Source: Tomocerus qinae
Taxonomy: Eukaryota > Arthropoda > Collembola > Entomobryomorpha > Tomoceridae
Length of the DNA: 64,000 nt
Direction: 5' to 3'
NCBI GenBank assembly: GCA_020055645.1
Contig: CM034546.1
Coordinates: 131,213,875 to 131,277,874, forward strand
Shown: piece after piece, positions 13,421-62,524 of the stretch
Layout: each line of letters opens with the position of its first letter
Numbering within the stretch: the first letter of the stretch is position 1
Made by a program: the position numbers and the translations under genes
The notes under the pieces: model-generated
The model's input: only the letters and a program-made list of their open reading frames with translations
What the model was told of the DNA's origin: nothing
Database searches by the model: none

Positions 13421-13459
13421 TTTCAAATATTTCCAATTAACCCCTTAATTAATCAATTT

Positions 13460-19020: not shown

Positions 19021-19369
19021 AACATGCAGTCAAACACACAAATATGGACAAATATAAATACCAATGTTTAATTCCGTTTATCAATCCAAAATGTATTGCG
19101 GAACTAATGCGGAAGCTTTAATATCAATTTTGTTAAACTCGATTGAATCAATACAAACTGTATTACATCTATGCAGAAATTTTGATATAAATTTAAACTC
19201 GGATGTTTCATAACAATTTGTATTATTAATTCGAAGTTTTGAAATTTGTAAATAAAACTCGGATGTATCAATACAAACTGTTGCACAAATTTTAAAAGTT
19301 AAACTCAGTTATATAAATACTCAATGTTGGAAATGAATGCGGATATCTAACTGAGGGAATGTTTCATAC

Positions 19370-20490: not shown

Positions 20491-20690
20491 ACGCTTCGCG
20501 TATATATGCCAAAGGCATAAGTCTTACGCTTCGCGTATATATGCCGTAGGCATACGTCTTACGCTTCGCGTATATATGCCGTAGGCATACGTCTTACGCT
20601 TCGCGTACATATGCCGTAGGCATACGTCTTACGCTTCGCGTACATATGCCGTAGGCATAGGTCTTACGCTTTGTGTATATATGCCATACT
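20491..20690 (+). repeat. 35-bp double-hairpin repeat array, left arm (6 units)
   Basis: Each unit holds two small perfect hairpins: TACGCTTCGCGTA and TATGCCGTAGGCATA. Six units are present; the first has CCAAAGG in its second loop and the last is degenerate. The mirrored array in the right arm has seven units, so copy number changed after the arms formed. It is not CRISPR-like because the units abut without unique spacers. Confidence 0.92.
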
Positions 20691-20840
20691 ATAGATCTAC
20701 ACTTGTACATATAACTCTAAATTACACCATTTTCTCTCTTCACTTAACTCCACGTATCCCCATTTTTTTTTATTTATTTTAATGCACAGCGTCTAATACC
20801 ATGTCCCATATCAGTTTAATCCATCTTAATCCATTAATTT

Positions 20841-34439: not shown

Positions 34440-36451
34440 AAAATCAGCGATCAAGACTAGGTCCCCAATTTTGACATTCTTTTTCTGCTGATGCCACTAT
34501 GTCTTTCTGGTTAATGTTGAGAGATATTCCCACAGCCATCTTTTCCAGAAATGATCCGCCAATCGCTGTGCTATCCTTCACTGCTTTCTTAACACCAAAT
34601 CATCATCAGAAAATCTTCCAAAAGATCCTCGGAATGCAGCTACATTAAACGTCCCCATGAAGAAATGACTAGGGGTAAGACTTTCCGGATCATTCGGATC
34701 CACAGAAACATGTGTTAATGGTCGACCATTGACTGTAGCTTCAGCTTCTGCAAACAACGTCTGTAGAACTTCGTCCTTAGTGTTGCTTTCCTTAAGAACT
34801 GATCCTAGTGCAATCTTAACAGATCTGATCAACCTATCGTAACTTCCTCAAAAATGTGAACCTGCCGGGGGATTGAAATACCACTCTATCCCTTTTACAG
34901 CTAAGTTAGTAATAGTCTTGTTTTTATTCAAATCCTTAAGAGACTTCTTTATCTGGCTGCCTATGCAAATTAGTTCCATTATCAGAATATATTTTGTCTG
35001 GGTAACCACGTCTATTAATCATATGCTGAATAATGATCGTCGTAGAAAGTGAATGTGCAACTTCCCAGTGAATAGATCTTGTGGTAAGACACATGAAAAT
35101 CACTCCATATCGTTTTTAACTTGGCTCCCCGACTTCGAGTAAATTTAAGAATTGTACCGATAATACCGGTTAAACGGTACCCATTTCTGGCATGACAGGT
35201 CTATAAATGATGCTCTCATCTTTTTCAACAACATATAAAATGGTTTCCTATGGACATTCCATGTCATAATAATAACAAATGGTGACACGCTTGTACCCAA
35301 ATTCGAGTAAATTTAATTAATTCGTATATATTCCACGCAATTAAACGGCCTTCAGCATGACACGGCTATAAATGATGCTCTTACCTTTCTCAACAACATA
35401 AAAATGGTTTTCATGGACATTCCATGTCATAATAACAAATGGTGACATTGTACCCAAATTCCAGTAAATTTAATTAATTGTATCCCTATTCCGCAATTAA
35501 ACGGCCTTCACATGACACGGCTATAAATGATGCTCTTACCTTTCTCAACAACATAAAAAGGTTTCCATGGACCACTCACATATTACGAATATAATAGCAG
35601 TCCTCATGTTCAAAAGCCAAAACTTTTGTCTCATTTCGTTAAAGACACACTGTTGACGATTGTGCCCAGCAAGTTCATGATAACAATGAATCAACAATCT
35701 TGTCATAGAATGTTTCGGATTCAATATGATTAGGTGCTTTGTGTCATCAAAGATTTCGTTTGCCCTGGAGATTCGCCCTTTGATTCTTAAAAATTCATCC
35801 AAAAAGGTGACAAAGTCTTGCTTGACTTTAGAATTTCCTTTCCTTTGCTCAGTAATTCAATCTCATCATTAAAATTCTTTTTCAGAGATTTTAAAATCTG
35901 TAATCTCTCTGCTTTTCCATATTCCTCTACTGACAATGGAGACAAAGTCAGTGGTTTCTTACTTATCTTACGAATGCAATTAAAGACAAATCGCAAAATC
36001 CATGCTGTCACACGTAATGTTTTCCAATATGAAAATTGCGTTGCACCTGGAATAACTTGATGTTCATGATGAATTACATTTACGAATTCCTTTTTGAGCT
36101 CTAACTTCTCGACTTTGCATTCTTCACCATTACATTTTGCATTTGAATTCCATTTCTCTTCAGATTCCAAAAGAAACTTTGACCCTGCATACCAACGACA
36201 ATCGCTCCTAAAGTCACATGGTTTATTATCCCTGGTAGACTCATCAACCCCATTTTCAATTGTAGAGATCCAATGCCAATTTCTACGTTAGTTAATTCGA
36301 AAATTTCTCCAATTCTATGGGAAGCGAAAGGTTTAAAAGTACGAGCGTCGGAATTCAACCAGCACAGAACCGTCTTTGAGTCTGACCAGAAATATACATC
36401 ATCCTTTATACATAAGATCTTTGTAAAGTGTGTGTGTCCGTCCGTCAACAT
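34440..36451 (-). pseudogene. BEL/Pao retrotransposon pol remnant (RNase H + integrase)
   Basis: From 36451 downward: an RNase H segment ([17 protein letters not shown] with [13 protein letters not shown]), a frameshift near 36101-36170, then the RNase H to integrase linker (35787-36170). The integrase zinc-binding part (35545-35802: GRISRANEIFDDTKHLIILNPKHSMTR in two blocks, HELAGHNRQQCV) follows. After 154-bp satellite copies (about 35130-35560) comes the integrase core around 34900-35130 (YGVIFMCLTTRSIHWEVAHS, YSDNGTNLH), then the C-terminal part (34578-34832, NGRPLTHVSVDPNDPESLTP) and FWKRWLWEYLSTL. Multiple frameshifts and stops make it nonfunctional. No RT or LTRs were recognised next to it. 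Confidence 0.85.
35130..35560. repeat. 154-bp satellite copies inside the BEL/Pao integrase
   Basis: About three diverged units (GACACGGCTATAAATGATGCT, CATGGACATTCCATGTCATA, CCCAAATTCGAGTAAATTTA) lie between the integrase core and its zinc-binding part. Flanking coding homology resumes on both sides, so they were inserted after the retroelement. Confidence 0.8.
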
Positions 36452-36454
36452 TTG

Positions 36455-36800
36455 AGAGCTTGAATTTGGCTCAGTGGCGTTGGAATGTTACAAATAATTC
36501 CAGGCTCTCAACACACACAAGTCACACAATACAATAATAATATCTCAGCTCATTCCACTTTTTGCTGCTCTTCTCTCTCGAAGCAGCAAAGGAGTGGCAT
36601 CAAACGGATTTTGAGCGAACAACAATTTTCAACCTGGTAGAGCCAGATTTAAATCAAGCGTAGTTTGGCTTGATCTATCTCTGTCTCTGCTCCAGTCTGT
36701 TGTCGCATGCTGATTGACTGAAATTTTTTGGTATCTTCTCCTATCTGCTGTCAACTATTCTCTGTTGACCAAGTGCTGCCGTTGGACCATTTGCCGGATT
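36455..36800. other. No recognised gene
   Basis: Unremarkable sequence between the BEL/Pao remnant and the hairpin macrosatellite. Confidence 0.5.
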
Positions 36801-36834
36801 TCAAATTAAAAAACGTCATAACTAAGGTGATTTT

Positions 36835-36965
36835 CATCCCAGTTGTCATTGAAAATTTGATTCAAACAATAACAAATGATACATTCCTGGTTTATTGTAC
36901 TCGGGTAAGAAAACCGAGTACAATAAACGGAATGTGTCATTTGTGATTGTTTGAATTGGTTGTCA
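36835..36965. repeat. Inverted repeat hairpin, ~55-bp arms
   Basis: The arm containing AACAAATGATACATTCCTGG and TTTATTGTACTCGG pairs with CCGAGTACAATAAACGGAATG and CATTTGTGATTGTTTGAATTG. The loop is about 9 nt. It is related to the hairpins in the adjacent 380-bp array. Confidence 0.7.
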
Positions 36966-38540
36966 AAATTATTATTCATTTTAAATGCATTGAGCATTTT
37001 GTGTCTAATCTTCATGTATTGTATTATGTAGTACTGTTATAGTCCTAGGAAAGAGTGGTATTGCCAATGTGGAGTTGCTCTTGGATATGCATTCTGATTG
37101 GGCGTAATTTTTTTGAAATCCAGTCTGCTGATTGACTATTGCTACATCGAATACTTTATAGATTCCCCAGATGGGGGAACTTTAGCAACACTTTGCAATT
37201 TACTACAAAATACAATACACGATATCAATATTATACACATGATGCACACAAAGATTATAACTTTGCAAGGTACAACAACGGAATCATTTGTGAATGTTTA
37301 AATCGGTTTTAAAATTATTATTCATAGTAGAATGAATATGATTCCGTTGTTGTACCTTGCAACATTCATTTTTTGTGTGCATTCTGTATATTATATTATT
37401 GTATTGTATTTTGTACTACTGTTAGTCCCAGCTGGAATGGTATTGCCCATTGCGGATTTGCACTTGGATATGCATTCTGATTGGGCGTAATCTTTTGAAA
37501 TCCAGTCTGCTGATTAACTATTGCTACATCGAATATTTTATAGATTCCCCAGATGGGGGAATTTTAGCAACACTTTGCAATTTACTACAAAATACAATAC
37601 ACCATATGAATATTATACACAGGATGCAGACAAAGATTATAGCTTGGCAAGGTACAACAACGGAGTCATTTGTGATTGTTTGAATCGGTTTTAAAATTAT
37701 TAAAAGTAGAATGAATATGATTCCGTTGTTGTACCTTGCAACATTCATTTTTTGTGTGCATTCTGTGTATTATATTATTGTATTGTATTTTGTACTACTG
37801 TTAGTCCCAGCTGGAATGGTATTGCCCATTGCGGATTTGCACTTGGATATGCATTCTGATTGGGCGTAATCTTTTGAAATCCAGTCTGCTGATTAACTAT
37901 TGCTACATCGAATATTTTATAGATTCCCCAGATGGGGGAATTTTAGCAACACTTTGCAATTTACTACAAAATACAATACACCATATGAATATTATACACA
38001 GGATGCAGACAAAGATTATAGCTTGGCAAGGTACAACAACGGAGTCATTTGTGATTGTTTGAATCGGTTTTAAAATTATTAAAAGCAGAATGAGTATGAT
38101 TCCGTTGTTGTACCTTGCAACATTAATTTTTTGTGTGCATTCTGTGTATTATATTCATGTATTGTATTTTGTAGTACTGTTAGTCCCAGCTAGGAATGGT
38201 ATTGCCCATTGCGGATTTGCACTTGGATATGCATTCTGATTGGGCGTAATTTTTTGAAATCCAGTCTGCTGATTACCTATTGCTACATCGAATATTTTAT
38301 AAATTCCCCAGATGGGGGAATTTCAGCAACACTTTGCAATTTACTACAAAATACAATACACTATATGAATATTATACACAGGATGCACACAAAGATTATA
38401 ACTTTGCAAGGTACAACAACGGAGTCATTTGTGATTGTTTGAATCGGTTTTAAAATTATTAAAAGCAGAATGAGTATGATTCCGTTGTTGTACCTTGCAA
38501 CATTCATTTTTTGTATGCATTCTGTGTATTACATTCATAC

Positions 38541-39100
38541 CAATTGAAGGTCTTCGCATGACACGGCTATAAATGTTGCTCTCATCTTTTCAACAACATA
38601 AAAATGGTTTCCGTGACATTCCAATGTCATAATAACAACAGTGAGCATTGTACCCAAATTCGAGTAAATTTAATTAATTGCATCTATTCTACCAATTAAA
38701 CGGCTCTCACATGACACGGCTATAAATGATGCTCTCATCTTTTTCAACAACATAAAAATGGTTTCAGGCGGACATTCCACATGTCATAATAACAAATGGT
38801 GACATTGCACCCAAATTCGAGTAACTTTAATTTAATTGTATATATTCCACCAATTAAAACGGCCTTCATGACACGGCTATAAATGATGCTCTTACCTTTC
38901 TCAACAACATAAAAATGGTTTTCGCGGACATTCCATGTCATACAACAAATGGTGACATTGTGTCTGGTAACTTGAGTAAATTTAATTAATTGCATTCATT
39001 CCACCAATTAAAACGGCCTCTTTAAGGACACGGCTATAAATGATGCTTCTTACCTTCTCAACAAACAGGTACCATCAATGGACATTCCATAGTCATAATA
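38541..39100. repeat. 154-bp satellite block in the macrosatellite
   Basis: About three to four diverged units with GACACGGCTATAAATG and CAACAACATAAAAATGGTTT replace macrosatellite sequence after unit four. Confidence 0.8.
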
Positions 39101-39193
39101 CCAGCTAGGAATGGTATTGCCCATTGCGGATTTGCACTTGGATATGCATTCTGATTGGGCGTAATTTTTTGAAATCCAGTCTGCTGATTACCT

Positions 39194-40261
39194 GGTTCCC
39201 GGATATATGTGCCAACGGTCAAATGTGCCAATTATTTTTTTCAGAGATTTTGAGAAGTGCCAAAAACAAAAGTGCCAATGAAATTAAATGCCAATGCAAG
39301 TTTAATTAGTCATTGTTAAGTCTCATGTTATGTACAAGGGTATTACTTTGTAAATTATAATCCTATGTGAGTTTAAGTCTTTCATCCTTGATTATTCCGT
39401 CCCACTAAATGTGTACATGCATTTAAATAATCGATAATAATATTAGGTTTTGTGAGATACTGTACAACCTGAAAAGAAATCTTTTCATCAAGCTCCCTGT
39501 ACCTTTTCTTTTGAGGTGTTGCCATTCCGCTGTTAAAGTAAACGATCATAAGCGAACAATTACTTTATTCGCTTTGGAAATGGGACAATAACATCTAAAT
39601 TGATGGATGCGGTTTATTCACTCTAGATAATAATTAAAACCATGATGCCAACTTCCAAGCAATTTGTTGTTCTTAGTACATCTTCTTGTACATGTTTCCA
39701 ATATCTTACGTTTTTAACAACACATGTTTTATATAGGAATACCTGTGCAGGTGTTTCTTTTCAACTACTGGGGCCAAGGCAAATGATAAACAGAAATAAA
39801 TGTAGGTTCACATGACACGGCTATAAATTTTGCTCATCTTACCTTTCAACAACATAAAAATAGTTTCCATGGACATTCCATGTCATAATAACAAATAGTG
39901 ACATTGTACCCAAATTCGAGGTAAATTTTAATTAATTGTATCTATTCTACCAATTAAACAGCCTTCATACGACACGGCTATAAATGATAGCTTATCAGCT
40001 TAGCGTTTACATATCAGCGTATTCAAATTACACAAGGCTTTCTTGATTGATCTAAGTTCGTTAGTCTTCCATTTACTATGAACTACAAATAGAATTGCTA
40101 GAAAAGCATAAATATTTTAGAATATATCATCCAAAGCAAACTTTTGGGATTTTGGCATTAAATGCTTTGGCACTTAAATTTTTGGCACTTTTGAAATTGA
40201 CACTTATGGACATTGAGAGTGCCAATTGGCACTTTTATTTTGGCACTTATATCCGGACACC
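39194..40261. mobile_element. Non-autonomous DNA transposon, 1068 bp, 8-bp target duplication
   Basis: GATTACCT occurs at 39186-39193 and again at 40262-40269, inside what is otherwise one continuous 380-bp macrosatellite unit (CTGCTGATTACCTATTGC). The element ends are GGTTCCCGGATATATGTGCC and, inverted, GGTGTCCGGATATAAGTGCC (17 of 20 match). Both subterminal regions are crowded with AGTGCCAA / TTGGCACT motifs in opposite orientation. No transposase is present. Its interior (39800-39990) contains one or two copies of the 154-bp satellite. 8-bp duplications fit hAT, P or related superfamilies; the ends match none I can name. Confidence 0.88.
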
Positions 40262-40678
40262 GATTACCTATTGCTACATCGAATATTTTATAAATTCCCC
40301 AGATGGGGAAATTTCAGCAACACTTTGCAATTTACTACAAAATACAATACACTATATGAATATTATACACAGGATGCACACAAAGATTATAACTTTGCAA
40401 GGTACAATAACGGAGTCATTTGTGATTGTTTGAATCGGTTTAAAATTATTAAAAGTAGAATGAATATGATTCCGTTGTTGTACCTTGCAACATTCATTTT
40501 TTGTGTGCATTCTGTGTATTATATTATTGTATTGTATTTTGTACTACTGTTAGTCCCAGCTGGAATGGTATTGCCCATTGCGGATTTGCACTTGGATATG
40601 CATTCTGATTGGGCGTAATCTTTTGAAATCCAGTCTGCTGATTAACTATTGCTACATCGAATATTTTATAGATTCCCC

Positions 40679-40812
40679 AATTAAACTTGGCCTTCACATG
40701 ACACACTTGCCACTAAATGTTGCTCTCATCTTTTTCAACAACATAAAAATGGTTTCCATGGACATTCCATGTCATAGCAACTAAATAGTGACATTGTATC
40801 CAAATTCGAGTT
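40679..40812. repeat. Single 154-bp satellite segment patched into a macrosatellite unit
   Basis: Within one 380-bp unit the sequence passes from GATTCCCC directly to AATTAAACTTGGCCTTCACA and leaves at AAATTCGAG|TTACTACAAAATAC. It replaces the stretch between CCCCAGATGGGG and CAATTTACTAC. It is a substitution, not a simple insertion. Confidence 0.8.
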
Positions 40813-42379
40813 ACTACAAAATACAATACACCATATGAATATTATACACAGGATGCAGACAAAGATTATAGCTTGGCAAGGTACAACAACGGAGTCATTT
40901 GTGATTGTTTGAATCGGTTTTAAAATTATTAAAAGTAGAATGAATATGATTCCGTTGTTGTACTTTGCAACATTCATTTTTTGTGCATTCTGTGTATTAT
41001 ATTATTGTATTGTATTTTGTACTACTGTTAGTCCCAGCTGGAATGGTATTGCCCATTGCGGATTTGCACTTGGATATGCATTCTGATTGGGCGTAATCTT
41101 TTGAAATCCAGTCTGCTGATTAACTATTGCTACATCGAATATTTTATAGATTCCCCAGATGGGGGAATTTTAGCAACACTTTGCAATTTACTACAAAATA
41201 CAATACACCATATGAATATTATACACAGGATGCAGACAAAGATTATAGCTTGGCAAGGTACAACAACGGAGTCATTTGTGATTGTTTGAATCGGTTTTAA
41301 AATTATTAAAAGCAGAATGAGTATGATTCCGTTGTTGTACCTTGCAACATTAATTTTTTGTGTGCATTCTGTGTATTATATTCATGTATTGTATTTTGTA
41401 GTACTGTTAGTCCCAGCTAGGAATGGTATTGCCCATTGCGGATTTGCACTTGGATATGCATTCTGATTGGGCGTAATTTTTTGAAATCCAGTCTGCTGAT
41501 TACCTATTGCTACATCGAATATTTTATAAATTCCCCAGATGGGGGAATTTCAGCAACACTTTGCAATTTACTACAAAATACAATACACTATATGAATATT
41601 ATACACAGGATGCACACAAAGATTATAACTTTGCAAGGTACAACAACGGAGTCATTTGTGATTGTTTGAATCGGTTTTAAAATTATTAAAAGCAGAATGA
41701 GTATGATTCCGTTGTTGTACCTTGCAACATTCATTTTTTGTATGCATTCTGTGTATTACATTCATGTATTGTATTTTGTAGTACTGTTAGTCCCAGCTAG
41801 GAATGGTATTGCCCATTGCGGATTTGCACTTGGATATGCATTCTGATTGGGCGTAATTTTTTGAAATCCAGTCTGCTGATTACCTATTGCTACATCGAAT
41901 ATTTTATAAATTCCCCAGATGGGGAAATTTCAGCAACACTTTGCAATTTACTACAAAATACAATACACTATATGAATATTATACACAGGATGCACACAAA
42001 GATTATAACTTTGCAAGGTACAATAACGGAGTCATTTGTGATTGTTTGAATCGGTTTTAAAATTATTAAAAGCAGAATTAATATGATTCCGTTGTTGTAC
42101 CTTGCAACATTAATTTTTTGTGTGCATTCTGTGTATTATATTCACGTATTGTATTTTGTAGTACTTCGAATATTTTATAGATTCCCCAGATGGGTAATTT
42201 TAGTAACACTTTGCAATTTAATACAAAATACAATACACTATATTAATATTATTATACACAGGATGCACACAAAGATTACAACTTTGCAAGATACAACAAC
42301 GGAGTCATTTGTTAATGTTTGAATCGGTTTAAAATTATTAAAAGTAGAATGAATATGATTCCGTTGTTGTACCTATCTT

Positions 42380-43555: not shown

Positions 43556-43775
43556 ATATTGATCCTTCGGGACAATATTCAGCTGATCCTTCGGGACAGT
43601 ATTTCACTGATCCTTCGGGACAGTATTTAACTGATCCTTCGGGACAGTATTTAACTGATCCTTCGGGGCTGTATTTAACTGATCCTTCGGGACAGTATTT
43701 AACTCATCCTTCGGGACAGTATTTAACTGATCCTTCGGGACAGTATTTAACTGACCCTTCGGGACAGTTTTGAGT
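43556..43775 (+). repeat. 24-bp minisatellite upstream of the Helitron Rep frame
   Basis: About nine tandem units of CTGATCCTTCGGGACAGTATTTAA end 25 bases before the Rep start codon. The opposite-strand frame of TVPKDQLN repeats is an artefact of the array. Confidence 0.9.
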
Positions 43776-43798
43776 CTTCTAGAAATACTGACATCAAA

Positions 43799-46440
43799 AT
43801 GTCGGGAAGGCAAAAGCGATCCGCGCAGGCTACAAAGGAAGTCCAAGCCAAGCGAATGCGGGAACGCAGAGCGAATCAAAGTGCTGAGCAAAAAGCTCAA
43901 CAACGTGCACAAAACGCTCAACAAAAGGCTCAAGCTAGAGTCAATTATACTGATGAGCAAATAGCTCAACAGCGTGCACAAAACGCACAACAAAAGGCTC
44001 AAGCTAGAGCCAATTATACTGATGAGCAAATAGCTCAACAACGTGCACAAAACGCACAACAAATGGCTCAAGCTAGAGCCAATTATACTGATGAGCAAAT
44101 AGCTCAACAACGTGCACAAAACACACAACAAATGGCTCAAGCTAGAGCCAATTATACCGATGAGCAAACAGTGCAAAGAAATTCTGTTGCAAGACTGCAA
44201 AAACAACAGAGAGTAGGAAGAATCTCCAATACTACTTTTAAAAAGGCCCGCATTTGTAAAAATGACAATGTTGTTGTAGATCTTCACTCTTTGGGTCCAA
44301 TGAATTGCAAATGCAGTTCATGCGGGTCTTTAAATTTTCGACATGAATTACCGTCGAGAAATAAAGGTGACAATGCAGATCTCACTTACTGTTGCCACAA
44401 AGGCAAAGTAGAATTGGATCCTGTTATGTGCCCGCCTATAATAAAAAACCTGTTGCAAGTAAATGCAGAGGATTCAGATGACCTTAAAAAGGTCAAAAAG
44501 AACTTTATGGATAACATCCGTAATTTTAATAATGCTTTAGCATTTGCTTCGATGGGAGGGCAGTATAAGCCTCCCAGTAATGTCACTATTGGCAATGGGC
44601 CTTATTGTTTTAAAGTCCACGGAATGGTTTACCATATGACATCAAAACGGGCCTACCCTGCCGATGGGAAGGTACCAGTGTATACTCAGCTGTACATGCT
44701 GGATACTTCCTTATTAGCCGCCGAAGCTCGGATGAATCATCCTTCTAATCAAAAGTGCCATAAGCCAACTATGGTAGATTTATCTGCTTGGATGGGTCAA
44801 AATAACCAACTCGCTAGCACATACAAAATGCTGCGAGATGTTGAAATGGCGCAGATTAAAAAATTTAATCAGCCAATTCCAGAATTGGTGCTTTCGTTTT
44901 CTGTTACTTCTGAAAATGATAGGAGACGATATAACGCTCCGACTTCAAATGAGATAGCGGTTGTGTTTGAAGCAAACGAGGAGGGAGAACCTCCATATAA
45001 TAGAGACATATGTGTCTACAACAAATTTACAAATGAGACACAGCAGCTCAAATTCTATGACCCTAAGTGTGATCCAATGGTGTATCCACTTTTATATCCT
45101 TATGGAACTCTAGGTTGGCATAAGGATTTAATGAATAAATTTGGGAAAAGAATAACCCAGATGATGTATTACAGTCACTTACTGGCTATACGAGATGAAT
45201 TTAATCATTTCATCTCTGCCGGAAAATTAACTCAGCAATTTATTGTTGACGCATATTGCAAAACAGAAGCAAACCGTTTGCATTTTATAGAAGAAAATCA
45301 ACCCAAGTTACGGATTGAAAGTTATCGTGGTTTAATGGACCAATTGCGCAGAGTCCAAACTGAGACAGGTGCTGAGGCCGGTAAGATGATAATCTTGCCA
45401 TCATCTTTTCAAGGAGGACCTAGGAGTCAAGTCCAGAATTTCCAGGATGCAATGGGAATTGTTAGAAAGTTTGGAAAGCCAGACCTTTTCATTACAATGA
45501 CCTGCAATCCTAAGTGGCATGAAATAAATGACAACCTTAATGGTTGCAGTATTGAAAATAGACCTGATTTGGTCGCTAAAGTCTTTAATGGAAAAGTTAA
45601 AGAACTTCTAGAAGATATTACGAAAAAGTATATATTTGGTCGCGTAACTGCTTACGTGTATGTAATTGAATTTCAAAAACGCGGACTTCCTCATTTGCAC
45701 ATGTTGCTTATGCTAGAAAATGACCAAAAGCCTCGAACTGCCGAGGATATTGATACATTTGTCTGGGCAGAAATTCCAGATAGAAATAAGGATCCTGATC
45801 TTTATGAAATTGTCAGAAAGAACATGATTCATGGTCCGTGTGGATATAAATGCATGGACGAAAAAGGGATGTGTTCAAAACAATTTCCAAAAGAGTTTCA
45901 AGAAGAAACCCGAAATAATGATAAAGGATACCCAAAGTACCAAAGCCGTGCTGGCCAAAAAGCTATTGTTAAAGCCAGAGAAATAGACAATTCATGGGTT
46001 GTACCATACAATCCTTATCTTTTAAAAAAGTACAATTGTCATATCAATGTCGAAATTTGCAACTCTGTTCAGAGTGTGAAATACCTTTTTAAATATGTTT
46101 ACAAAGGTCACGATGCTGCAAGTGTTAAAATCACTGAAAAAGGTGACCAACAACGCATACTTAACCATAACGAGGTTAAAGACTACTTGGATACACGCTA
46201 TGTTAGTGCTCCAGAAGCCATGTGGCGACTTAATGGATATAAGATGCACGACCAGTCGCATCATATTGTTCGATTGGCAATTCATTTAGAGAACTGCCAA
46301 GGCGTTTGTTTCAAATCTGGAAACGAGCAAGCAGCTTTGGAAAGAGCTCTTTTAAAGGAAACCACACTTACAGCTTGGTTTAAATTGAATGAAACAGATG
46401 AAAATGCAAGACAGTATTTGTATACTGAAATACCTATGCA
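43799..46440 (+). pseudogene. Helitron Rep endonuclease portion (N-terminal ~880 codons)
   Basis: Starts MSGRQKRSAQATKEVQ. Four tandem copies of a 23-residue Gln/Ala-rich repeat (YTDEQIAQQRAQNAQQ..., 69 bp at DNA level) probably form a coiled coil. A Cys-rich patch follows (CKCSSCGSLNFRHEL), then the Helitron N-like domain (YPLLYPYGTLGWH). The Rep nuclease has the two-His motif (RGLPHLHMLLML), FITMTCNPKWHE and the tyrosine motif (KYLFKYVYKG). Rep nicks single-stranded DNA to start rolling-circle transposition. The frame is open to the P-like insertion, after which a stop arises in inserted DNA. Excising that insertion and one target copy rejoins EIPMH to YVFHQNP in frame. Confidence 0.93.
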
Positions 46441-46906
46441 CAAGATTTATAAACCGTAGTTTCCATGAACACTGACAGGTTGGCTTGTCAGGACGATGAA
46501 AAATAAAAAATCACTTTTTTCCTCCTGGACCCAATTTTCCCCCAATTTGAGTCCAGATCACCGATACCGACTATGTCGAATGTCATAATGACTATGTCAA
46601 GTTACAATGTCGAAATGCGGATTAAATTAAATTTCCTAATGATTTGTGGCTTAGAGGAAAATAGTTCAGGAAAAGATGTCCCACAAATCGGTCACAGCTC
46701 TTGTTTTTTCAGAAACACCCCTCTCTATATAATATTCTTTTATCTTATACAATAATAATAATAGCTCTCCAATAATAATAATCATACTACACAAAGCAAG
46801 CAAAACAAAAATCATTATTCAACAAATACAGCAAAAATTTACTAATTACATTTTAAACGATACAAACAGACATACAAGTATTATAAATCAAATATTAAGC
46901 GAAATA

Positions 46907-47693
46907 TTATCCACTAGTGTTTTCACACGAGCCTTTCCAATCATCTAGCATCTCTTTTTCACTTACACCAAATAAGGAATCCCACTCTTGTTGCATCTCA
47001 GATTCACTCATTATGTGCGCATCTATTTCGTCTACTTCTTCTGAATCAGGAACATGTGATCTTAGGAAATGGATGATTTTGTTTCTTCTTTGAAACTTCT
47101 TTGAGTTTAACTGCCTGTTCACATACTTGATCCTAATGAAAATTCTGGTTTTAGCATACATACCAATAAGTTTTTCTGAAATATTCGGAAAAGACTCTGT
47201 TAATTTTGACTGTAAAAGTTCCAGAACTTTTTCACCCCGATACAAACCGTATTTGTCTCCTTTCTCTCGAAACAAGTGCAGAAAAACTTGTTCAAATTGC
47301 ATAAATGTATTCAAAAAATTTTCTGTTTAGTCAAAATCATTTTTAATTGTTTTTCCGAGAAAATCGTTTCGGAGTTTGCAAGTACTTCGGACTTTGCAGT
47401 TTTGTACATGGTTATGCATTCCGTTTTTTTCGGCTTAGTTCATCTTGCAGTAGTTTTACTTTATCACTCAAAGCTTTCAATCTGCCTGTTTCCCGAAGTC
47501 GCTTTAATCTGTCCTTTCTAATCTTCCTGGCCTTAGCTTGTCTACAAGATTTTATTATCTGTTTTAAACGATTTGTTTCATCCTCGATATCAGGAGACAT
47601 AGTTGTGTTGTGATTTGTGGCAATCTGCGAATGACCTTCTATGACCTCCGGATGGGGCGACAAATCATTTTCATTTTCAAAACTAATGAACAA
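46907..47693 (-). CDS. C-terminal fragments of a P-like transposase-related protein
   Basis: Two minus-strand frames. 47412-47693 is charged and helical (KARKIRKDRLKRLRETGRLK), probably a coiled coil for dimerisation. 46907-47314 holds KLIGMYAKTRIFIRIKYVN followed by a basic stretch and an acidic tail, a pattern I associate with the C-terminus of THAP/P-element transposase-like proteins. They are probably exons of the same transcript as the THAP exon at 47944-48198, but the exact splice joints are not certain. The RNase H-like core expected between them is absent. Confidence 0.6.
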
Positions 47694-47928
47694 AACCCTA
47701 TTAATATGTAGTTTTAGTTTTTATACTCGAATTTCTGGTTATTACGTGATCTTAATGACTATCCCATTGTCAAGCTGTGCTACGAAGTACTTATGATCGT
47801 TGCCAGATGTAGGAAGCTTAATAGTAAACTGATGTTGAGGCAGTGGTAGTCCTAATAATTATTAACAGTAATAGTAACGGTTGCATTAAGTTGGATAGAT
47901 TTGTATATCTATACGTAAGTAATAATTA

Positions 47929-48198
47929 TTAGCTACCTTTCAAAAATAATGCCGGTGTAGCTCTTGACTTAAGTATTTTTCTACCTCTTGTGTCTGTCTT
48001 AAAGTTTTGACTCGAAAAATGTCGATTACATATACGTCGACATTCTTTTCCGGAACTATTTTCCTCTAAGCCACAAATGGAGAGCCATTGTTTGCGAATT
48101 TCCAAATCATTAGGTAATCTATGCAAAGAGTAAAGGTTTGTAAGATTTCCTTTTAGTCTCCGAGCGTTGGGACACCCTTTGATAGCGCATTTCGACAT
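47929..48198 (-). CDS. THAP domain (DNA-binding) exon of the P-like element
   Basis: ATG at 48198 begins MSKCAIKGCPNARRL. The C-x4-C ... C-x2-H zinc ligands are complete (CAIKGC, then CRRICNRHF), the invariant Trp is present (RKQWLSICGLEE), and the end matches the AVPTLF-type box as ATPALFL. A splice donor (AAAG|GTAGCT) follows near 47940. THAP domains bind transposon ends or host promoters. It lies ~30 bp inside the right TIR, as expected for the first exon. Confidence 0.88.
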   Translation of the reverse strand: MSKCAIKGCPNARRLKGNLTNLYSLHRLPNDLEIRKQWLSICGLEENSSGKECRRICNRHFSSQNFKTDTRGRKILKSRATPALFLKGS

Positions 48199-48366
48199 TG
48201 TAACTTATTTAATTAATTATGCAACAGTCGGTATCGGTGACCTGGACTCAAATTGGGGGAAAATTGGGTCCAGGAGGAAAAAAGTGATTTTTTATTTTTC
48301 ATCGTTCTGACAAGCCAACCTGTCAGTGTTCATGGAAACTACGGTTTATAAATCTTGACCTATGCA

Positions 48367-50358
48367 CTATGTTTTTCACCAAAATCCTGTTGAAGCTAAT
48401 CATTGGGCACCACGCAAAAAGGGAGCCGAAAAAGCCATTAGTAGAATGTATGGTGTTCATTTTAGTGATACAGAAAAGTATCATTTAAGACTTCTTCTCC
48501 TACATATTAGAGGAGCTAGAAATTGGGTTGATTTGTATACAGATCAATTTGGTGAAGTTTGTACTTCATTTGTCGAAAATTGTAGACGTAGACATCTTCT
48601 TAAAGATGATACAGAGTTGAATGATACTCTTAATGAAGCTTCTTTAACGACGTTTCCCAAGCAAATGAGAATGCTTTTTGCATGGTTGTTGGCTTTCAGC
48701 GGAACACCAAATGGAGGAACACTATTTGAAAACCACAAAGTAGCATTGTGTGAAGATTTTGAGAATGCTAAAATGTCTTATCCAGAGGATAGGGCATTAC
48801 ACGACATAATTGACACGCTCCGTTTGCATGGAGCTGATTGGAGTGGACTTGGTCTACCCATTCCTAGGGAAATTAATGATTTAATTCCTCCTGAATATGA
48901 TGTAGAGACTCAAAGGGAACTTGGAGAGTTGTATCTGGCTCAGCTTAATGTTGAACAGAAAGAAGTGTTCGATATGGTTATGAAAGCTATTGATAACCCT
49001 TTGGAAAAGAATAGATGCTTCTTTGTTGACGGTCCCGCTGGTAGCGGAAAGACTTTTCTCTATAATACTCTTCTTTGTGTCCTACGTCGTCGTAGTGATA
49101 TTGTTTTACCAGTAGCTACCACTGGAATTGCCGCTACATTGCTTGACGGTGGGAGAACATATCATTCCCAGTTTACAGTACCGGTTCCCACAACAAGAGA
49201 ATCAGTATCACACATGAAGTCTTTGTCACGAGAGGCTGATATTTTGAGAGCAGCTAAGCTCACTGTTTGGGATGAGACCGGAAGTACTCTAGGTAAAGCT
49301 CTGACTGTTGTAGACAGACTTTTAAAGGAGGTAAATAAGTCTAAGGACTTAATAAATGAATACCGATTATTTGGTAACATGGTCATTCTTTTTGGAGGTG
49401 ACTTTAGACAAACGTTACCCGTTGTAGTCGGTGGAAACCGAGTTCAAATTGTAGAGGAATGTATGAAACGATCTCCAATCTGGCGTAGTATTACTCAGAT
49501 TAAATTAAAACAAAACATGAGGGCTGCTAATGATGTTGCATATGCAGACTGGCTACTTTCCTTAGGAAACGGCACTCTCTCCAATGATGATATTCTTGGA
49601 GAAAACGTTTTTGAAATACCACCCCAATGTATTTGTAATGGCTCATTAGTGGATGAAATATTCTCAGAGTCATTTACTGCTGATGAAGCTGAAAATTTTG
49701 CTTCGAGAGCAATATTGTGTCCTTTAAACGAGGACACTTTTGAATTTAATGATTAAATTTTGGATCGTTTGGAAGGACCAGAAAAGGTCTATTACAGTGT
49801 TGACAGTATTGATACTGATGACGATCAGGAAAAAATGACTTTCCGGTCGAATATTTGAATACTTTAAATGTATCAGGGATGCCTGTGCATAAGTTGACTC
49901 TCAAAGTAGGAGCGGTTGTAATGCTGCTACGAAATTTGAATTGGAAAAGAGATCTTTGTAAGGGAACAAGACTCATTGTCAAGGAATTAAAAGAAACCTT
50001 GATTATTGCCAAAGTTGTATCTGCTGGAAAATCTCAGGGACAGACTGTGTTGATTCCACGAATCACACTTACCCCTTCAGAAACCCCTTTTCCTTTTGCT
50101 TTGCAAAGGAATCAGTTTCCAATACGAGTGGCTTTTGCCATGACTATTAACAAGTCACAAGGACAGACTTTGGATAAGGTTGGGCTTTGTTTGCCTCAGC
50201 CAGGGTTTGCGCATGGTCAAACTTATACTGCTTTCTCGAGAGTAAGAACATTTGAAAACATCAAAGTTCAAGTTAAAGATACAGAAGTGCAAGGAAAACT
50301 TATTCCTGGCAGCCATCGAGTGTTCACTCAAAATGTAGTGTACAAGGAAGTTCTTTAA
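48367..50358 (+). pseudogene. Helitron PIF1-like helicase portion, with stop and frameshift
   Basis: Continues from the Rep part after the P-like insertion. The rest of the Helitron middle region (YVFHQNPVEANHWAPRKKG) precedes the helicase: Walker A GPAGSGKTFLYNTLL, Walker B VWDETGS, LFGGDFRQTLPVV and KLKQNMRA. A TAA stop at 49754-49756 and a one-base loss near 49840 break the frame. The final segment (49855-50358) retains GMPVHKLTLKVGAVVMLLRN, PIRVAFAMTINKSQGQTL and HGQTYTAFSRVR (motifs V/VI). It unwinds DNA during rolling-circle transposition. Given the stop, the frameshift and the insertion it cannot be active. Confidence 0.93.
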
Positions 50359-51909: not shown

Positions 51910-52164
51910 CTAGGAAACGAATCGGCATTCGTGACACTTCATATCAGACATGCTTCTCAATTTCAGTAGCCACGATTTCCATTTCACATTCAAAGAATCT
52001 GTCAGCTCATCGTCCCATCCAATGCCCGCTCTCCAGATTTCTTGCAGTAAAATCTTAGCTTTTACTGTGAAATGAGATAAGTATCCCAGCGGGTCAAAAT
52101 ACTCTGTTTTCAAAACTTGCCTTTTAGTAGATCTTTGTGATCCAGTACTGATAATTTTTGACAT
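51910..52164 (-). pseudogene. BEL/Pao pol fragment (RT to RNase H connection)
   Basis: The frame reads STKRQVLKTEYFDPLGYLSH and LLQEIWRAGIGWDDELTDSL, the conserved DPLG and W-x-GI-WDDEL signatures of BEL/Pao polymerases between RT and RNase H. Only ~80 residues remain. One side abuts minisatellite at 52147; the other enters the 55-bp direct repeat. Confidence 0.8.
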
Positions 52165-52407
52165 TTTTCATAATTTTTGACATTTTTCATAATTTTTGAC
52201 ATTTTTCATAATTTTTTGACATTTTTCATAATTTTTGATATTTTTCATAAATTTTGACATTTTTCATAATTTTTGGCATTTTTTATAATTTTTGACATTT
52301 TTCATAATTTTTGACATTTTTCATAATTTTTGACATTTTTCATAATTTTTGACATTTTGCATAATTTTTGACATTTTTCATAATTTTTGACATCTTGCAT
52401 AATTTTT
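52147..52407 (-). repeat. Minisatellite CATAATTTTTGACATTTTT (reverse of that at 11.5 kb)
   Basis: About 13 units of 19-20 bp. Reverse-complemented, the unit is AAAAATGTCAAAAATTATG, the same family as 11505-11745. Confidence 0.9.
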
Positions 52408-52916: not shown

Positions 52917-53993
52917 AAATTAATTAATTGTATCTAATCCACCAATTAAACGGCCTTCACATGACATGGCTATAAATGATGCTCTTACCTTTCTCAACAA
53001 CATAAAAATAGTTTCCATGGACATTCCATGTCATAATAACAAATGGTGACATTGTACCCAAATTCGAGTAAATTTAATTAATTGTATCTATTCCACCAAT
53101 TAAACGGCCTTCACATGACATGGCTATAAATGATGCTCTTACCTCTCTCAACAACATAAAAATAGTTTCCATGGACATTCCATGTCATAATAACAAATGG
53201 TGACATTGTACCCAAATTCGAGTAAATTTAATTAATTGTATCTATTCCACCAATTAAACGGCCTTCACATGACACGGCTATAAATGATGCTCTTACCTTT
53301 CTCAACAACATAAAAATGGTTTCCATGGACATTCCATGTCATAATAACAAATGGTGACATTGTACCCAAATTCGAGTAAATTTAATTAATTGTATCTATT
53401 CCACCAATTAAACGGCCTTCACATGACACGGCTATAAATGTTGCTCTCATCTTTTTCAACAACATAAAAATGGTTTCCATGGACATTCCATGTCATAATA
53501 ACAAATAGTGACATTGTACCCAAATTCGAGTAAATTTAATTAATTGTATCTATTCTACCAATTAAACGGCCTTCACATGACACGGCTATAAATGATGCTC
53601 TCATCTTTTTCAACAACATAAAAATGGTTTCCATGGACATTCCATGTCATAATAACAAATGGTGACATTGTACCCAAATTCGAGTAAATTTAATTAATTG
53701 TATATATTCCACCAATTAAACGGCCTTCACATGACACGGCTATAAATGATGCTCTTACCTTTCTCAACAACATAAAAATGGTTTTCATGGACATTCCATG
53801 TCATAATAACAAATGGTGACATTGTACCCAAATTCGAGTAAATTTAATTAATTGTATCTATTCCACCAATTAAACGGCCTTCACATGACACGGCTATAAA
53901 TGATGCTCTTACCTTTCTCAACAACATAAAAATAGTTTCCATGGACATTCCATGTCATAATAACAAATGGTGACATTGTACCCAAATTCGAGT
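52917..53993 (+). repeat. 154-bp satellite array, left of the gap (~7 units)
   Basis: Units start TAATTAATTGTATC at 52921, 53075, 53229 and onward every ~154 bp, with conserved blocks CACCAATTAAACGGCC, GACACGGCTATAAATGATG, CATGGACATTCCATGTCATA and GACATTGTACCCAAATTCGA. Unit similarity is high here, higher than in the copies at 35.1-35.6, 38.5-39.1, 39.8-40.0 and 40.7 kb. The array runs straight into the run of N, so its true length is unknown. Confidence 0.95.
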
Positions 53994-57120: not shown

Positions 57121-60100
57121 TCAATAGAAATTGTTTGGAGGCCAATATCGGCCTCTGTCAGATCCAGGAAATCGGTTAGCGCTGTTATTTGGAGCAGACA
57201 AATTGGGAGGTGGAGTAGCCCTATAGGGCGTTGGGAGAAAAACATAATTTCCTCCTTGAAGCAATGGATTTTGGAATCCTCCATATCGCATATACTGCAA
57301 TGTATTATGATGGAAATAAATAGGTTGACGATATAACGGATGATCCCGAAAAGTTGGCGGATTTTGAAATCCGGGTGATGAGGCGCCACTATTAATTTTC
57401 TTTTTAGCAGCATTCTTTGACTTTGGACTGGGAGAAGCTTTTGGTTTCAGACAGTTGCAATTATTCTTCGACATTGGGCAATCTTTGTAGCATTCATGAT
57501 TTACAGTGCAGGGATGACCTTGAGAACATTGCCTTCTGCATTTCTCAATACACTGGTATTTCATGTGTGGGCGAATATCTGCTCCATGACAAACAAACCG
57601 ACACTGATGCCCACAGTTAAAAATTTTCTCACACCGACGATCACATCCAGGTGACAGTGAAGCGACCTTGTTGCATTCAATAATCGTCTGAAAAAAAATA
57701 AAAATCATTTTATTAATCAAAGTACAATATTTTATAGTAAACTAAATTGGAAAATGTTTACCTTGTGACTACAATCAGCAGATTTGACCACCAATCTATG
57801 ACAAATTACTTCCAATGGACTTTGATGACATTCCATTTCCTCTTCATGTCCACATGATAGTATCTTTATTACCATAGATGAGCATTGTGGTTCTTTCTTT
57901 AAATGGCTGGGATATTTTATCATATGTCCCCATGGGCAAATCTTTTCGATCATTGATTCGCTCTCGATTTTGACATTTCCCGATCCCGCAAACGGCAAAT
58001 AATTACCGATACTCCCCATTTTCACAAGAGTGGTGTTGATTTTTCTCCATGTTTTCGATGCTGCTTTCAAGCAATACATATTTCCAATCATAAAGAGTCC
58101 GTGCCTGTAAAAATACAAAAATTATGCTAAGTCAACATTAAAAAACATAATTACTACATAATAGGTACTTAGCGTTTTTTGGTAAATTACCTTAAAATTG
58201 AACCTTAACCTTAAATTTTAAGGCCCAAATCTGCTAAAGGCCACGTGGTGAGAATTTTATAATTTAAGGTAAAAAATTAGACACTAAATGTAACACTAAA
58301 TTTTTATTTTAGTGTATGACGCTATTTTGAAACTTACGATTTTAACGTTTTTTTCTCTTGACACTAAAACGCTAAGTACCTAATAAAGTACACATAAAAC
58401 TTAAATTTATTTTTAATACTTTACCTAGCTCGAGACATTGCAATACACACTTTGCTGTCTGTTTTTAGGGACCCAATATCATTTTTGTCATTGCTTCGAA
58501 CCAGCGACAATAAAATGATATCATTTTCTTCTCCCTGATAATCATCAATAGAGCTGACTTTCACTCCTCCGTTTTTCACCAAATTCCCGAGTTTCTACAG
58601 AGAATTAATTTACTACTTTTAAAATATTTGGCAGCATTAAATTTTTGGAAACGATTTAAAAAAAATACTAACGTTTTCCATCCGCATTTTTTGGCAATAC
58701 TCAGCAGCAAGCACTGTGATCTGATTTGGCTGGTAGAATCCTTCATTTAGGAAATACTTGATAAATCCAAACAGGCAATTGACTTCATATTTATTATAAC
58801 AGCTTCCTGATCCCTTGTCCTATAAAATTTTGGTTTTATCTTCAAAATTGATGAAATAAAAAAAATATTTAGAACAAAAATTGCATTCACAAAATAAATA
58901 AAAAATAATAAAAACATTATTATGTGATAAAATACACAAATAAATTCTAACCCTTGATTCGGCGTTGCGATGATCAACAAAAAATACGTTTTTAGAGCAG
59001 CCTTTAACGTCAGGAAAATTGTAAACATCAGGATGGTTAAATACTCCTTGATAAATGACTGGGCATACCATCCGAGCAATTTCAGGACGCATTCTGTGCT
59101 GAACTTTTAATTGTGTCCAATTCTGATTGCCTTGGATCTCTCCATTTTGAATAAGTCTTGTCATCAAAGATAAACCGGCATTGTACTCAGATACAAAATT
59201 GTGACCAGCAGTCAAATTCCTCAATCGTTTGTAATCCCCAATCATAATCATCTGCTGACAATACTCAGATAGAGAGGCGACGACAAGCGCCTCTAAAATA
59301 TGCGCAGCTTCTTCAACAATCATAATTTTCGGTTTCGTCTTGTGGAAAATATCTTTGTACTTCACAGCTCCTGTTGTAGTCATTCCGATGACTTTAGCTG
59401 CCCGAATGGATGTTTCTACGCTGACGCTGTTTTCAATCTGAGAATATTCTTCCTCTAGGGACTTGATTTTATCATTCGTTTCCTCCACAATGCATTTAAC
59501 GCATTTAATAAGGTGAAAGTACAACGCCCACCGGGAAGAAAGTATTTTGATCCTGTTCAAGCCGGTACCTTCACATTGTTCGAGCATACCAGATATATTT
59601 TCTGAAGTCAGCCAATTGTTGTCTAAATACTGGGATATAGAATCCAAATAAGAAGACAAGAGAAAGTCTTGATGGAAAGTGACCAAAAATAGACCGTCGG
59701 TTATACCTACATATTTTCCATTGAGGCCATACCAATTTAAGGGATCTTTTATGATTTGATTTTCACACTTCTTCCATTTGTCAAGAACGAGTTTACTTTT
59801 GGTATCTTCAGATAATTGGTCAAAGATTTTTGCAGGCAATTTTTGAAAATTTAATATTCCTTGCCGCACGAGCAAATTTTGAAAATTGAGATCTTTGATG
59901 GAATTGAGAATTCTGTGGAATGATCCGATTCTTTTTGAAAGCATCTTTTTCTCCTGATGACTTTCTAATTTATTTTTGAAAGCCAATGGTTGAATAATCT
60001 CAGATTTTGAACCACTGCCAATGCGGAGAATCATTTTATGAGCTTCTTCCTTCCCAACACCAAGATCGATTGAGATAAAATCAAAAATTTGCTCCAGTGT

Positions 60101-62524
60101 TCTATCCACAACTTGATTTGTGAAGCCAACTATAATTATTGGCGAATTAATAAGCCAATAATTTGATAATAGCAATTTGATGATTTGCATCTTAAGGAAG
60201 GTCTTCCCAGTTCCAGGAGGTCCTTGGATTATGGTCATTTCTTGTGTCACAGCTTTCTGGAATGCTTCGTATTGACCTCCGTCGAAATGCAATTGATATG
60301 CAGTTGGCCAGTTTTTTAAATCCATAGGAGCCGCCCTGTATAGCTCTTGACTCGAAGATTCGACTAGTTTATTCAGCAAAACTGAAAAATCCAATTTACG
60401 TGATTCGTATCGTAAGTAAGGTGGCGGATGGGGAGTTGTAACAGCGTCCACGATGTACTTCTTCAACGGAAACGTATTCAAGTCGACAGTTTGTAGATAT
60501 TCTACAGAAAACTTGTAAGTGTCATGAAATGATGAACTTTCCATCATCAGAAATTGATTATTACTCTCGTCTACAGTCCAGCTTGATCCTTGCTTTGAAA
60601 ATTCAACTCCCAACTTCAGAAATTCTTGATTGCTCACCCCGATTGGAAATTCTATTCGAGATTTAATTACAGCAAATTTTACTGTCTTGAAGTCTTCGGT
60701 TGTTAGCAGCAATAAGGATCCAATCGTGAAGATAGTTGATTCCTTCCAGTCAACATTCTGCAATTCGCTTTGATCAATTGGAACCAAAATTGTCCCGCAC
60801 CTGTTTACTTCCAAGTTGCTGCTCTTCCCATCAATTTGAATTTGAACGTTGTGAAAGAGTGAATTCTTTTTAAATTTCTTCCACTCAGCCATATTGACTC
60901 CATCTTTCAAAGGTCGTAGAAAATCTTCCAATAACAGTTGAAATTGGACATCCAGATACTTTTCACATGAAGAGTATGCTCCAATTACGTGATTTTCTTT
61001 CTGACTAACAATTTGAGAATCCACGAATAAATCCGGCTCTATGGGCTCGACGCACAATTCGGAACTCTGGTTTGGAGTTGTTGTTGAAAAATTGCAATCC
61101 AAACTCAGGTTATCAATTTCTTCCCTAAAATTCAAGAAATAATGTTTTTACTTACTTCTTACTGGCGATAAAGCTTTTAAAATTATATCGTACCGTATGA
61201 TAAAATCTTCCCATTTGTCACGATGCATCAGGTAGAGCTTCAATGTTGCTTGAGCATCCTGAATCTAAATCATAAAAAATTATTTCCTTCTAATTGTTAA
61301 ATTAAAAAAATTATGTTCATTACTTAATTATTTTAATTAAATACATAGTTTAACAAATTTAACAACCACTAAAAGACCTGTTTAATATCAGAATTTGACT
61401 TACAGAACTGTGTTCACCCGTCTGTATGTTGAATCTCAAATATTGATTAGTTAGATCCTTCAAAGACGGTAATAATTTCAGTTGCTGCTCCTGCATAAAA
61501 TATCTGAAAATATTTAAAAGAGTATTACTCTTTCCTATTTATTGACAACTGCTGAATTTATATTAAGTGCAGAAATGTATAAAATCGAACATAGCAGTAT
61601 CTCTGATAAGATGTCTCGGGTGGTTGTTTAATTTCAAAACGTCCAGATCATTAGCGATTGCATGACCTATGAGTGTTTTTGATTCCACCATTTCAGCAAC
61701 CTCTTTCAAGACGGTATCTGTATCAGTAGCTGTTAAAATACAATTAGATCAAGAATTAATTTAAATATTTTCTATTTCATCCTTTTTTTATGTCGTTTAG
61801 TTAAAGAAAATTGTTATTTTTTAGTTTTTAGAGGTTGATTTTGAATGTTCTTATCAAGTAAGGTAAATTTAATTTCAATATTTCAATTGTAATACGTGCA
61901 TCGTGTATGCTCGCACATTACCCACCCAAAACTTGGTTTTACATTGTCAATTTAAAAAAGCTTCGATATTTACACTTAATAAGGTAATTTTAATGTTTTT
62001 TCCACTTTGCAATAGTTTTCCTTTAATTTAAAATATTTTATATTAAATATTATTAATAGTTCAGATTTATTTATTTTGAATTTTTGAAAATTACAAATGA
62101 CATCCTGTTGATCAGTATTGTTAAAATAGAATGTATTACCGTTTATCAAATCCTCAGGTCTGACTCCACTGAATTCTGTTCTGAAATCCGTAACTTCTTT
62201 CCTCGGCCGGACAAATTTGTCATAGATGCAATATCCATGTTCGTTGACAATGGAGATGCGGGCCAATGCATTAATATTAAAATCACCAACTCCCACCATT
62301 TCGCAGTCGATGGCCAATAAATTCGTAATTGAAGTATAATACGGGGGAAGAAAAATGGTCCCGTTCTCTTCTTCCCGAATACTCCATGGTTTCCTTCCGT
62401 AATGATCATACTGAATAAATCCTAATGGATTGAAGAACTGTTCAGGAATCCTGCAGCCCTTAAAATTTTGACTTTCATAATTGAAACGGTTTTCTGGCAC
62501 AACGTTTTTGGTATTCAGTTCCAT
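57121..62524 (-). CDS. DEDDh exonuclease - ZNFX1-like helicase - NFX1 zinc-finger fusion protein
   Basis: Nine exons (62140-62524, 61591-61729, 61404-61503, 61194-61264, 58952-61124, 58673-58819, 58425-58594, 57762-58104, 57121-57687) with GT-AG introns and matching phases give 1364 residues. Residues ~68-232 are a REXO4/ISG20-type 3'-5' exonuclease: D73 and E75 (AIDCEMVG), D156 (GHAIANDLD), H206 and D211 (EHSSIQDAQA). The superfamily 1 helicase follows: Walker A GPPGTGKT at ~533-540, IVEEAAHILE, QHRMRPEIA, DDYQGEENDIILLSLVR, IAMSRAR. Motif III is GDYKRLRN, where ZNFX1/UPF1 relatives have Q and P. The C-terminal exons carry Cys/His NFX1-type repeats (CGHEEEMECH, FNCGHQCRFVCHG, CSQGHPC) and a Pro/Asn-rich tail. 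Expected role: RNA helicase and RNA 3'-end trimming, by analogy with ZNFX1. The exonuclease-helicase joint rests on one 69-bp intron (61125-61193, phase 2). The donor of exon 2 (AT|GTTCGA) is weak. Confidence 0.88.

Follow-up and report, generated by a model that had tools for sequence, protein, structure and literature searches.

ZNFX1 is reported to bind double-stranded RNA in antiviral immunity (PMC11959080), and in C. elegans it is needed for the correct positioning of RNA-dependent RNA polymerases on target transcripts (PMC9200344). The N-terminal part of ZNFX1 is described as an ARM-type fold and a possible unique feature, and the same source treats both the mode of action on RNA and the purpose of the ARM domain as open questions (PMC11959080). 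Another system, HELZ2, combines helicase and 3'-5' exoribonuclease activities in a single chain and lowers LINE-1 RNA (PMC9839780). Here we describe a predicted gene of the springtail Tomocerus qinae in which a REXO4-type exonuclease of the DEDDh class appears to replace the N-terminal part of a ZNFX1-type helicase. The gene lies in a 64,000-nucleotide stretch of contig CM034546.1 (positions 131,213,875 to 131,277,874 of assembly GCA_020055645.1), which is referred to as the window.

The gene occupies positions 62524-57121 on the minus strand, and its nine predicted exons (Table 1) join to 4095 nucleotides encoding 1364 amino acids. A preliminary description of this DNA had given the same exon number, coding length and frame from ATG to stop; this model was reproduced, with the terminal codon as the sole stop. 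All eight introns have GT-AG borders and lengths of 69-410 nucleotides, and their GC content is 15-25% versus 39% in the coding sequence. Pfam assigns to the protein an RNase_T domain (amino acids 71-219), a ZNFX1 domain (342-429), AAA_11 (best stretch 512-637) and AAA_12 (883-1071). A tblastn search for a second copy in the window matched only the gene itself.

The joining of the two halves is not restricted to this genome. Residues 1-300 were searched against targets of about full protein length, and 8 of the 1087 candidates scored matched at E <= 0.001. Two of the eight also carry ZNFX1 and AAA domains. One is P0001, deposited as NFX1-type zinc finger-containing protein 1-like isoform X2, a protein of 1571 amino acids from the fungus gnat Bradysia coprophila whose gene lies on a contig of 9.3 Mb. 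The other is P0002, a protein of 1716 amino acids from Pseudolycoriella hygida, a fungus gnat of the Sciaridae, named Helicase required for RNAi-mediated heterochromatin assembly 1, partial. The remaining six, which include proteins of fungi and of the springtail Orchesella cincta, have RNase_T without ZNFX1, either with other domains (P0003, P0004, P0006, P0008) or with none (P0005, P0007). P0001 and P0002 share the domain order of the window protein at 39-43% identity over both halves, and single BLAST alignments cross the junction in each case (window residues 26-1236 against P0001, 39.5%; 57-1101 against P0002, 43.0%). The two gnat proteins are 56% identical to each other over 1050 columns. 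The P0002 model has C2H2 fingers ahead of the fusion and a C-terminus outside the alignment with P0001; it looks chimeric at both ends, and its ends were not trusted.

The helicase half was likewise used as a query, and RNase_T was found among the best 120 of 1551 helicase matches only in P0001 and P0002. A third close relative on this side is P0009 (805 amino acids, on a 5.7 kb contig), after which the E-values drop from 7e-151 to 5e-104. The preliminary description had proposed an exonuclease and a ZNFX1-like helicase in one chain, with a protein search for both domains as a check, and the two gnat genera bear this out. It had also regarded the domain order as new to it. No paper describing a REXO4-ZNFX1 fusion was among those listed in our searches of the openly readable literature, but the order is already deposited in the two gnat proteins under ZNFX1 and helicase names. 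HELZ2 had been cited as a precedent with a different nuclease type, and this is correct: its nuclease is RNB-type and lies between two helicase domains (PMC9839780), whereas Pfam finds no RNB domain and one helicase in the window protein. By these comparisons the fusion is a conserved architecture extending beyond the genome of the window, and is best classed as a variant of the ZNFX1 family.

In a sequence search of the PDB, the first part of the protein matched ISG20L2 (E 8.8e-29) and ISG20. The preliminary description had reported an intact DEDDh domain, and all five residues (D73, E75, D156, H206 and D211) are indeed present, aligned with the DEDDh positions of ISG20L2, ISG20 and AtSDN1. 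They are kept in 127, 127, 126, 126 and 126 of 127 aligned rows, respectively (P0006 was dropped beforehand as its match was too short), the exceptions being P0002, with N for D156, and P0007, with a gap at H206 and D211. A profile built from four exonuclease slices, including an Orchesella sequence, scored 7994 proteins and gave 1533 matches. Among the best 120 of these, functional names are REXO4/REX4 except for P0128, a tapeworm protein named 'interferon stimulated 20 kDa exonuclease', and the REXO4-named members span many animal groups. REXO4 is the closest stand-alone family by profile search and by tree, the exonuclease trees having been made without ISG20 or AEN rows, and shares the five catalytic residues; we therefore classify the nuclease as REXO4-type. 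The listed REXO4 proteins have 165-525 amino acids, a range set by the length limit of the search, and are far too short to hold the helicase of the window protein.

For the whole protein, the best PDB match by sequence was human ZNFX1 (9q9z, E 1.6e-106). Exon 5 by itself (724 amino acids, 49 rows) was modelled with AlphaFold2, with a mean predicted local distance difference test score of 76.7 and a predicted template modelling (TM) score of 0.73. The best PDB fold match of this model was again 9q9z (E 1.4e-33, TM 0.59 by query, root-mean-square deviation 8.4), so that structure prediction, suggested earlier as a check, places the ZNFX1 helicase core first; the model supports the fold class and nothing beyond it. 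The Walker A motif GPPGTGKT reported earlier is present at amino acids 533-540. The superfamily 1 (SF1) core is thus nearest to ZNFX1 by PDB sequence match, protein search, tree and exon 5 fold match, and together with the ZNFX1 domain this identifies the predicted helicase as ZNFX1-type SF1. Similarity to the canonical ZNFX1 of Bradysia (P0018) starts in BLAST at amino acid 274 of the window protein and 252 of P0018. The exonuclease would accordingly occupy the place of the N-terminal ARM-type part, whose identity as ARM is taken from a review (PMC11959080), Pfam naming no domain in the N-terminus of P0018.

The Cys/His-rich part is reduced relative to ZNFX1. The NFX1-type Cys/His repeats of the preliminary description are few, with 2 CGH triplets in the window protein, 15 in P0001 and 11 in P0018; BLAST matches this stretch to the zinc-finger region of P0018 at E 1.7e-15. 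Pfam did not call an NFX1 finger in the window protein at E up to 1, nor in the canonical P0018 and P0107 (from the springtail Allacma fusca) at E up to 0.01, and its blank on the window protein therefore says little. The C-terminal RZ-type finger pattern, present in P0018 and P0107, is absent from the window protein and P0001.

The window protein also departs from ZNFX1 in two helicase motifs. In SF1 helicases, unwinding is coupled to ATP hydrolysis through motif III, and motif Ia contacts RNA. The comparison set comprised 117 unfused relatives, namely the best 120 of the 1551 helicase matches minus P0001, P0002 and P0009. Motif Ia, TNHALDQ in these relatives, reads TNQVVDR in the window (Q569, V570, V571, R573), and the H, A, L and Q are each kept in 117/117. 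Motif III, GDHxQLxP, reads GDYKRLRN (Y863, R865, N868); here Q and P are kept in 117/117 and H in 116/117. In P0001, P0002 and P0009, motif III has its H, Q and P and motif Ia its H, A and L, with E at the position that is Q in motif Ia of the unfused relatives. The exonuclease, on the other hand, is the best conserved part of the fused protein. Its identity is 57% between window and Bradysia and 58% between the two gnats, while the corresponding RecA1 values are 42% and 57%, which makes the nuclease look more constrained than the helicase in the window lineage. In P. hygida, the helicase may be the more constrained of the two.

From this combination of domains we propose that the protein degrades, in the 3' to 5' direction, RNA to which its helicase half is predicted to bind, and we give this reading as a whole, with the nuclease replacing the N-terminal part and degrading such RNA, a probability of roughly 55%. 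ZNFX1-like binding of double-stranded RNA or silenced transcripts would bring the nuclease to foreign or transposon RNA, and the predicted 3'-5' exonuclease would then degrade the RNA held by the helicase half. Destruction would thereby take over from the signalling or templating that the ARM-bearing ZNFX1 supports. For the window lineage, we consider RNA binding rather than strong unwinding to be the likely main task of the helicase half, as motifs Ia and III diverged and the nuclease stayed conserved. The role that we favour is RNA destruction in transposon or virus control.

Several observations weigh against this proposal. The changes in motifs Ia and III of the window protein could mark a failing helicase. 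P0002 has N in place of the catalytic D156, which suggests that the nuclease is dispensable in P. hygida, although the P0002 model is the one with chimeric-looking ends; taken with the motif changes in the window, this means that the protein may not require both activities. The P0009 model has no exonuclease. Finally, the nuclease-dead mutant of HELZ2 is reported to have minor effects on LINE-1 restriction, the helicase mattering more (PMC9839780), so that a nuclease joined to a helicase is not necessarily the effector.

Trimming of the 3' ends of ribosomal or similar RNA is the role usually ascribed to REXO4-type enzymes. The fused protein could accordingly be a housekeeping 3'-end trimmer of such RNA, with the helicase as an unwinding aid and without a role in defence or silencing. 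Membership in a family with listed members from many animal groups and the strong conservation of the exonuclease are both in keeping with this. In the searches made, however, only the window and two gnats yielded the fusion, the protein evolves fast outside the nuclease, and the partner belongs to a defence and silencing family, and we regard housekeeping as unlikely. We judge no more favourably the idea that the window copy combines an active nuclease with a binding-only or decaying helicase, in which the helicase half, its ATPase cycle uncoupled, acts as a scaffold that binds RNA. The replacements at positions kept in all or all but one of the 117 unfused relatives and the long branch of the window helicase speak for it; on the other side, Walker A and motif II are intact, the sequences of motifs IV to VI stay near the consensus, and exon 5 is open over 724 codons and is not simply a pseudogene.

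The remaining alternatives concern the junction at intron 4. We tried 47 GT-AG pairs there, of which 12 leave the frame open, and the best six open-frame pairs all keep the fusion. The pair of the present model (61193/61125) scores second and 61193/61104 first, and the acceptor is therefore uncertain by 21 nucleotides; with acceptor 61104 the protein would be 7 residues shorter at a point where the alignment shows a gap of 7 residues in P0001 and a smaller gap in P0002, and this choice fits the homologues slightly better. If intron 4 is retained, a stop at 61150-61148 yields a protein of 246 amino acids with the exonuclease domain complete. Frequent retention, with the exonuclease as a separate product and the spliced fusion as a minor form, would be eased by the shortness of the intron (69 nucleotides) and by its donor TACG/GTACGA, which departs from GTAAGT, and by the position of the stop just past the domain. 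The annotated form in the two other genera is the fused one, and we consider this two-product arrangement improbable. A separate first exon for the helicase, which the preliminary description had named as evidence against a fusion, finds no support at the locus: the first Met of exon 5 is at amino acid 310, already within conserved helicase-side sequence, and a separate helicase would therefore need an unseen first exon. It is very unlikely that neighbouring REXO4 and ZNFX1-like genes were strung together by the gene model, even though the same search returned REXO4-type domains joined to unrelated ones, some of them likely model errors (such as P0006, with eIF3A, from Orchesella), and P0009 has no exonuclease in its model, because two other genera have the same order, the linker is conserved at 38-60% identity among the window protein, P0001 and P0002, and exon 5 lacks an earlier Met.

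Table 1. Predicted features of the fused gene in the window (aa, amino acids of the 1364-residue protein)
Feature	Position	Strand	Details
Nine exons (predicted)	62524-62140, 61729-61591, 61503-61404, 61264-61194, 61124-58952, 58819-58673, 58594-58425, 58104-57762, 57687-57121	minus	
Exon 1	62140..62524	minus	Start codon; N-terminal extension aa 24-66 with FNPLGFIQYDHYG; Exo I motif D73 and E75
Exon 2	61591..61729	minus	Exo II motif; catalytic D156 at 61649-61647
Exon 3	61404..61503	minus	Exo III motif; H206 at 61412-61410
Exon 4	61194..61264	minus	D211 at 61258-61256; end of exonuclease domain
Intron 4	61125..61193	minus	69 nt; fusion junction
Exon 5	58952..61124	minus	724 whole codons: linker, ZNFX1 domain, RecA1, start of RecA2
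ZNFX1 domain PF25396	60533..60796	minus	aa 342-429; E 1.7e-08, 34.8 bits vs cut-off 27
Walker A GPPGTGKT	60200..60223	minus	aa 533-540
Deviant motif Ia IIVGFTNQVVDR	60101..60136	minus	aa 562-573; LVVCYTNHALDQ in unfused relatives
Motif II IMIVEEAAHILEA	59288..59326	minus	aa 832-844
Deviant motif III MIMIGDYKRLRN	59216..59251	minus	aa 857-868; LILIGDHQQLRP in unfused relatives
Exon 6	58673..58819	minus	RecA2
Exon 7	58425..58594	minus	Motif V and first part of motif VI
Exon 8	57762..58104	minus	Remainder of motif VI, end of RecA2, start of Cys/His-rich part
Exon 9	57121..57687	minus	Cys/His-rich part (no Pfam call), Pro/Asn/Gly/Tyr-rich tail, stop

Trees were built for both halves. The exonuclease tree held 43 rows, with 84 of 127 left out (including fishes, three tapeworm rows and two long rows, fungal or other), and the three fused exonucleases formed one clade with bootstrap and Shimodaira-Hasegawa-like approximate likelihood ratio test support of 95/91. 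In the helicase tree (32 rows, 89 of 121 left out), the fused rows and P0009 formed one clade at 100/100; this clade branches long, and the window helicase is itself on a long branch. As both halves form single clades, the fusion probably arose once.

This clade of fused helicases and P0009 joins, at 97/95, the canonical ZNFX1 of Bradysia, a B. odoriphaga protein and the ZNFX1 of Allacma fusca, which among themselves are a clade at 100/100. Forcing the two Bradysia canonical ZNFX1 proteins together with the three other insect rows was rejected (approximately unbiased test, p-AU 3e-69). By this placement, the canonical ZNFX1 of Bradysia is of a springtail type. A pairwise comparison of P0018 with P0107, the canonical ZNFX1 proteins of B. 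coprophila and A. fusca, gave 56% identity over nearly the whole length; the helicase part of P0018 is 63.5% identical to that of Allacma and 42% to that of a cockroach. This pattern, seen in the comparison of P0018, P0050 and P0107, is a candidate for animal-to-animal transfer or for a contaminant. The Bradysia contigs measure 9.3 and 15.2 Mb, and since the Allacma contig has only 27.6 kb, contamination in the Allacma direction is possible.

A similar link was seen at the other end of the protein. The N-terminal extension, with a pattern as in FNPLGFIQY, occurs in the window protein, P0001, P0006 and P0130-P0134 and in none else among 129 proteins scanned; it is absent from P0002. Sequence comparison placed the same proteins (P0006, P0130-P0134) on top, and P0006, P0130, P0131 and P0133 come from the springtail genus Orchesella. 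The grouping of the Bradysia ZNFX1 with a springtail protein and the extension shared with Orchesella proteins together hint at a springtail-gnat transfer, and we propose that the fusion or its parts moved between springtails and the Bradysia lineage.

Against such a link, the fused exonucleases group with five Orchesella or Orchesella-like REXO4 proteins at only 75/11, the nearest exonuclease to that of the window by plain identity is the REXO4 of a bug (P0135, 55%), and the top-scoring REXO4 profile matches are from tapeworms (P0127-P0129), which in a quick tree formed a long branch near the fused and springtail rows. A wider split of fused proteins, Orchesella-type REXO4 and P0179 was found at 92/94, not starred. 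No dipteran REXO4 is named among the best 120 of the 1533 profile matches, and because the profile included an Orchesella sequence, a gnat origin of the nuclease is possible. Viral contigs were searched with the helicase-side alignment and two peptide patterns, the exonuclease not being searched there, and gave 69 matches of which 0 were confirmed, and no viral carrier was found. It has been reported that 17 P450 genes were transferred from springtails to Bradysia (PMC12051294). We offer a fuller history tentatively, as one that we think may well be wrong: a ZNFX1-type sensor would have become an RNA destroyer when its ARM module was swapped once for a REXO4 nuclease in a springtail-type lineage, and the gene would have passed between springtails and fungus gnats and would now help to control transposons or viruses in an animal that acquired its canonical ZNFX1 separately.

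The presence of a nuclease in place of the ARM part of ZNFX1, in the window and two gnat genera, represents a natural experiment by evolution, and the fused protein suggests that RNA bound by ZNFX1 may be worth destroying. Bradysia also has the canonical ZNFX1 (P0018), providing a laboratory fly in which this can be tested. If the springtail link is true, an RNA-defence gene would be added to the 17 P450 genes that this fly is reported to have received from springtails (PMC12051294).

The remainder of the window is rich in mobile elements and repeats. An Rfam scan at gathering threshold gave no match in the 64 kb, and a tRNA scan with bacterial settings found none. Minus-strand open reading frames (ORFs) at 3-2093 include a P-loop GGVGKS within 1710-2093 and appear STAND/NB-ARC-like by eye, Pfam at E up to 0.001 giving no match on 3-1709. 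Satellite arrays with units of about 155 bp and 380 bp lie at 35190-42165 and 52920-53993, and a 19-bp array at 52151-52407 has a second occurrence in inverted orientation at 11506-11751. A Helitron at 43751-50358 comprises a Helitron_like_N ORF (43751-46459), a PIF1 helicase ORF (48359-49756) and an ORF at 49822-50358 that is, by eye, its apparent continuation. An HRDC domain match (E 3.6e-06) was found in an ORF at 33417-34358. The largest structure is an inverted repeat, 13072-20839 and 25098-32854, with 7.8 kb arms that are 98.8% identical and a 4.3 kb spacer with two ORFs, one for an integrase (rve, 21513-22349) and the other rich in Cys (22405-23103); the whole is either a fold-back or an element with very long terminal repeats.

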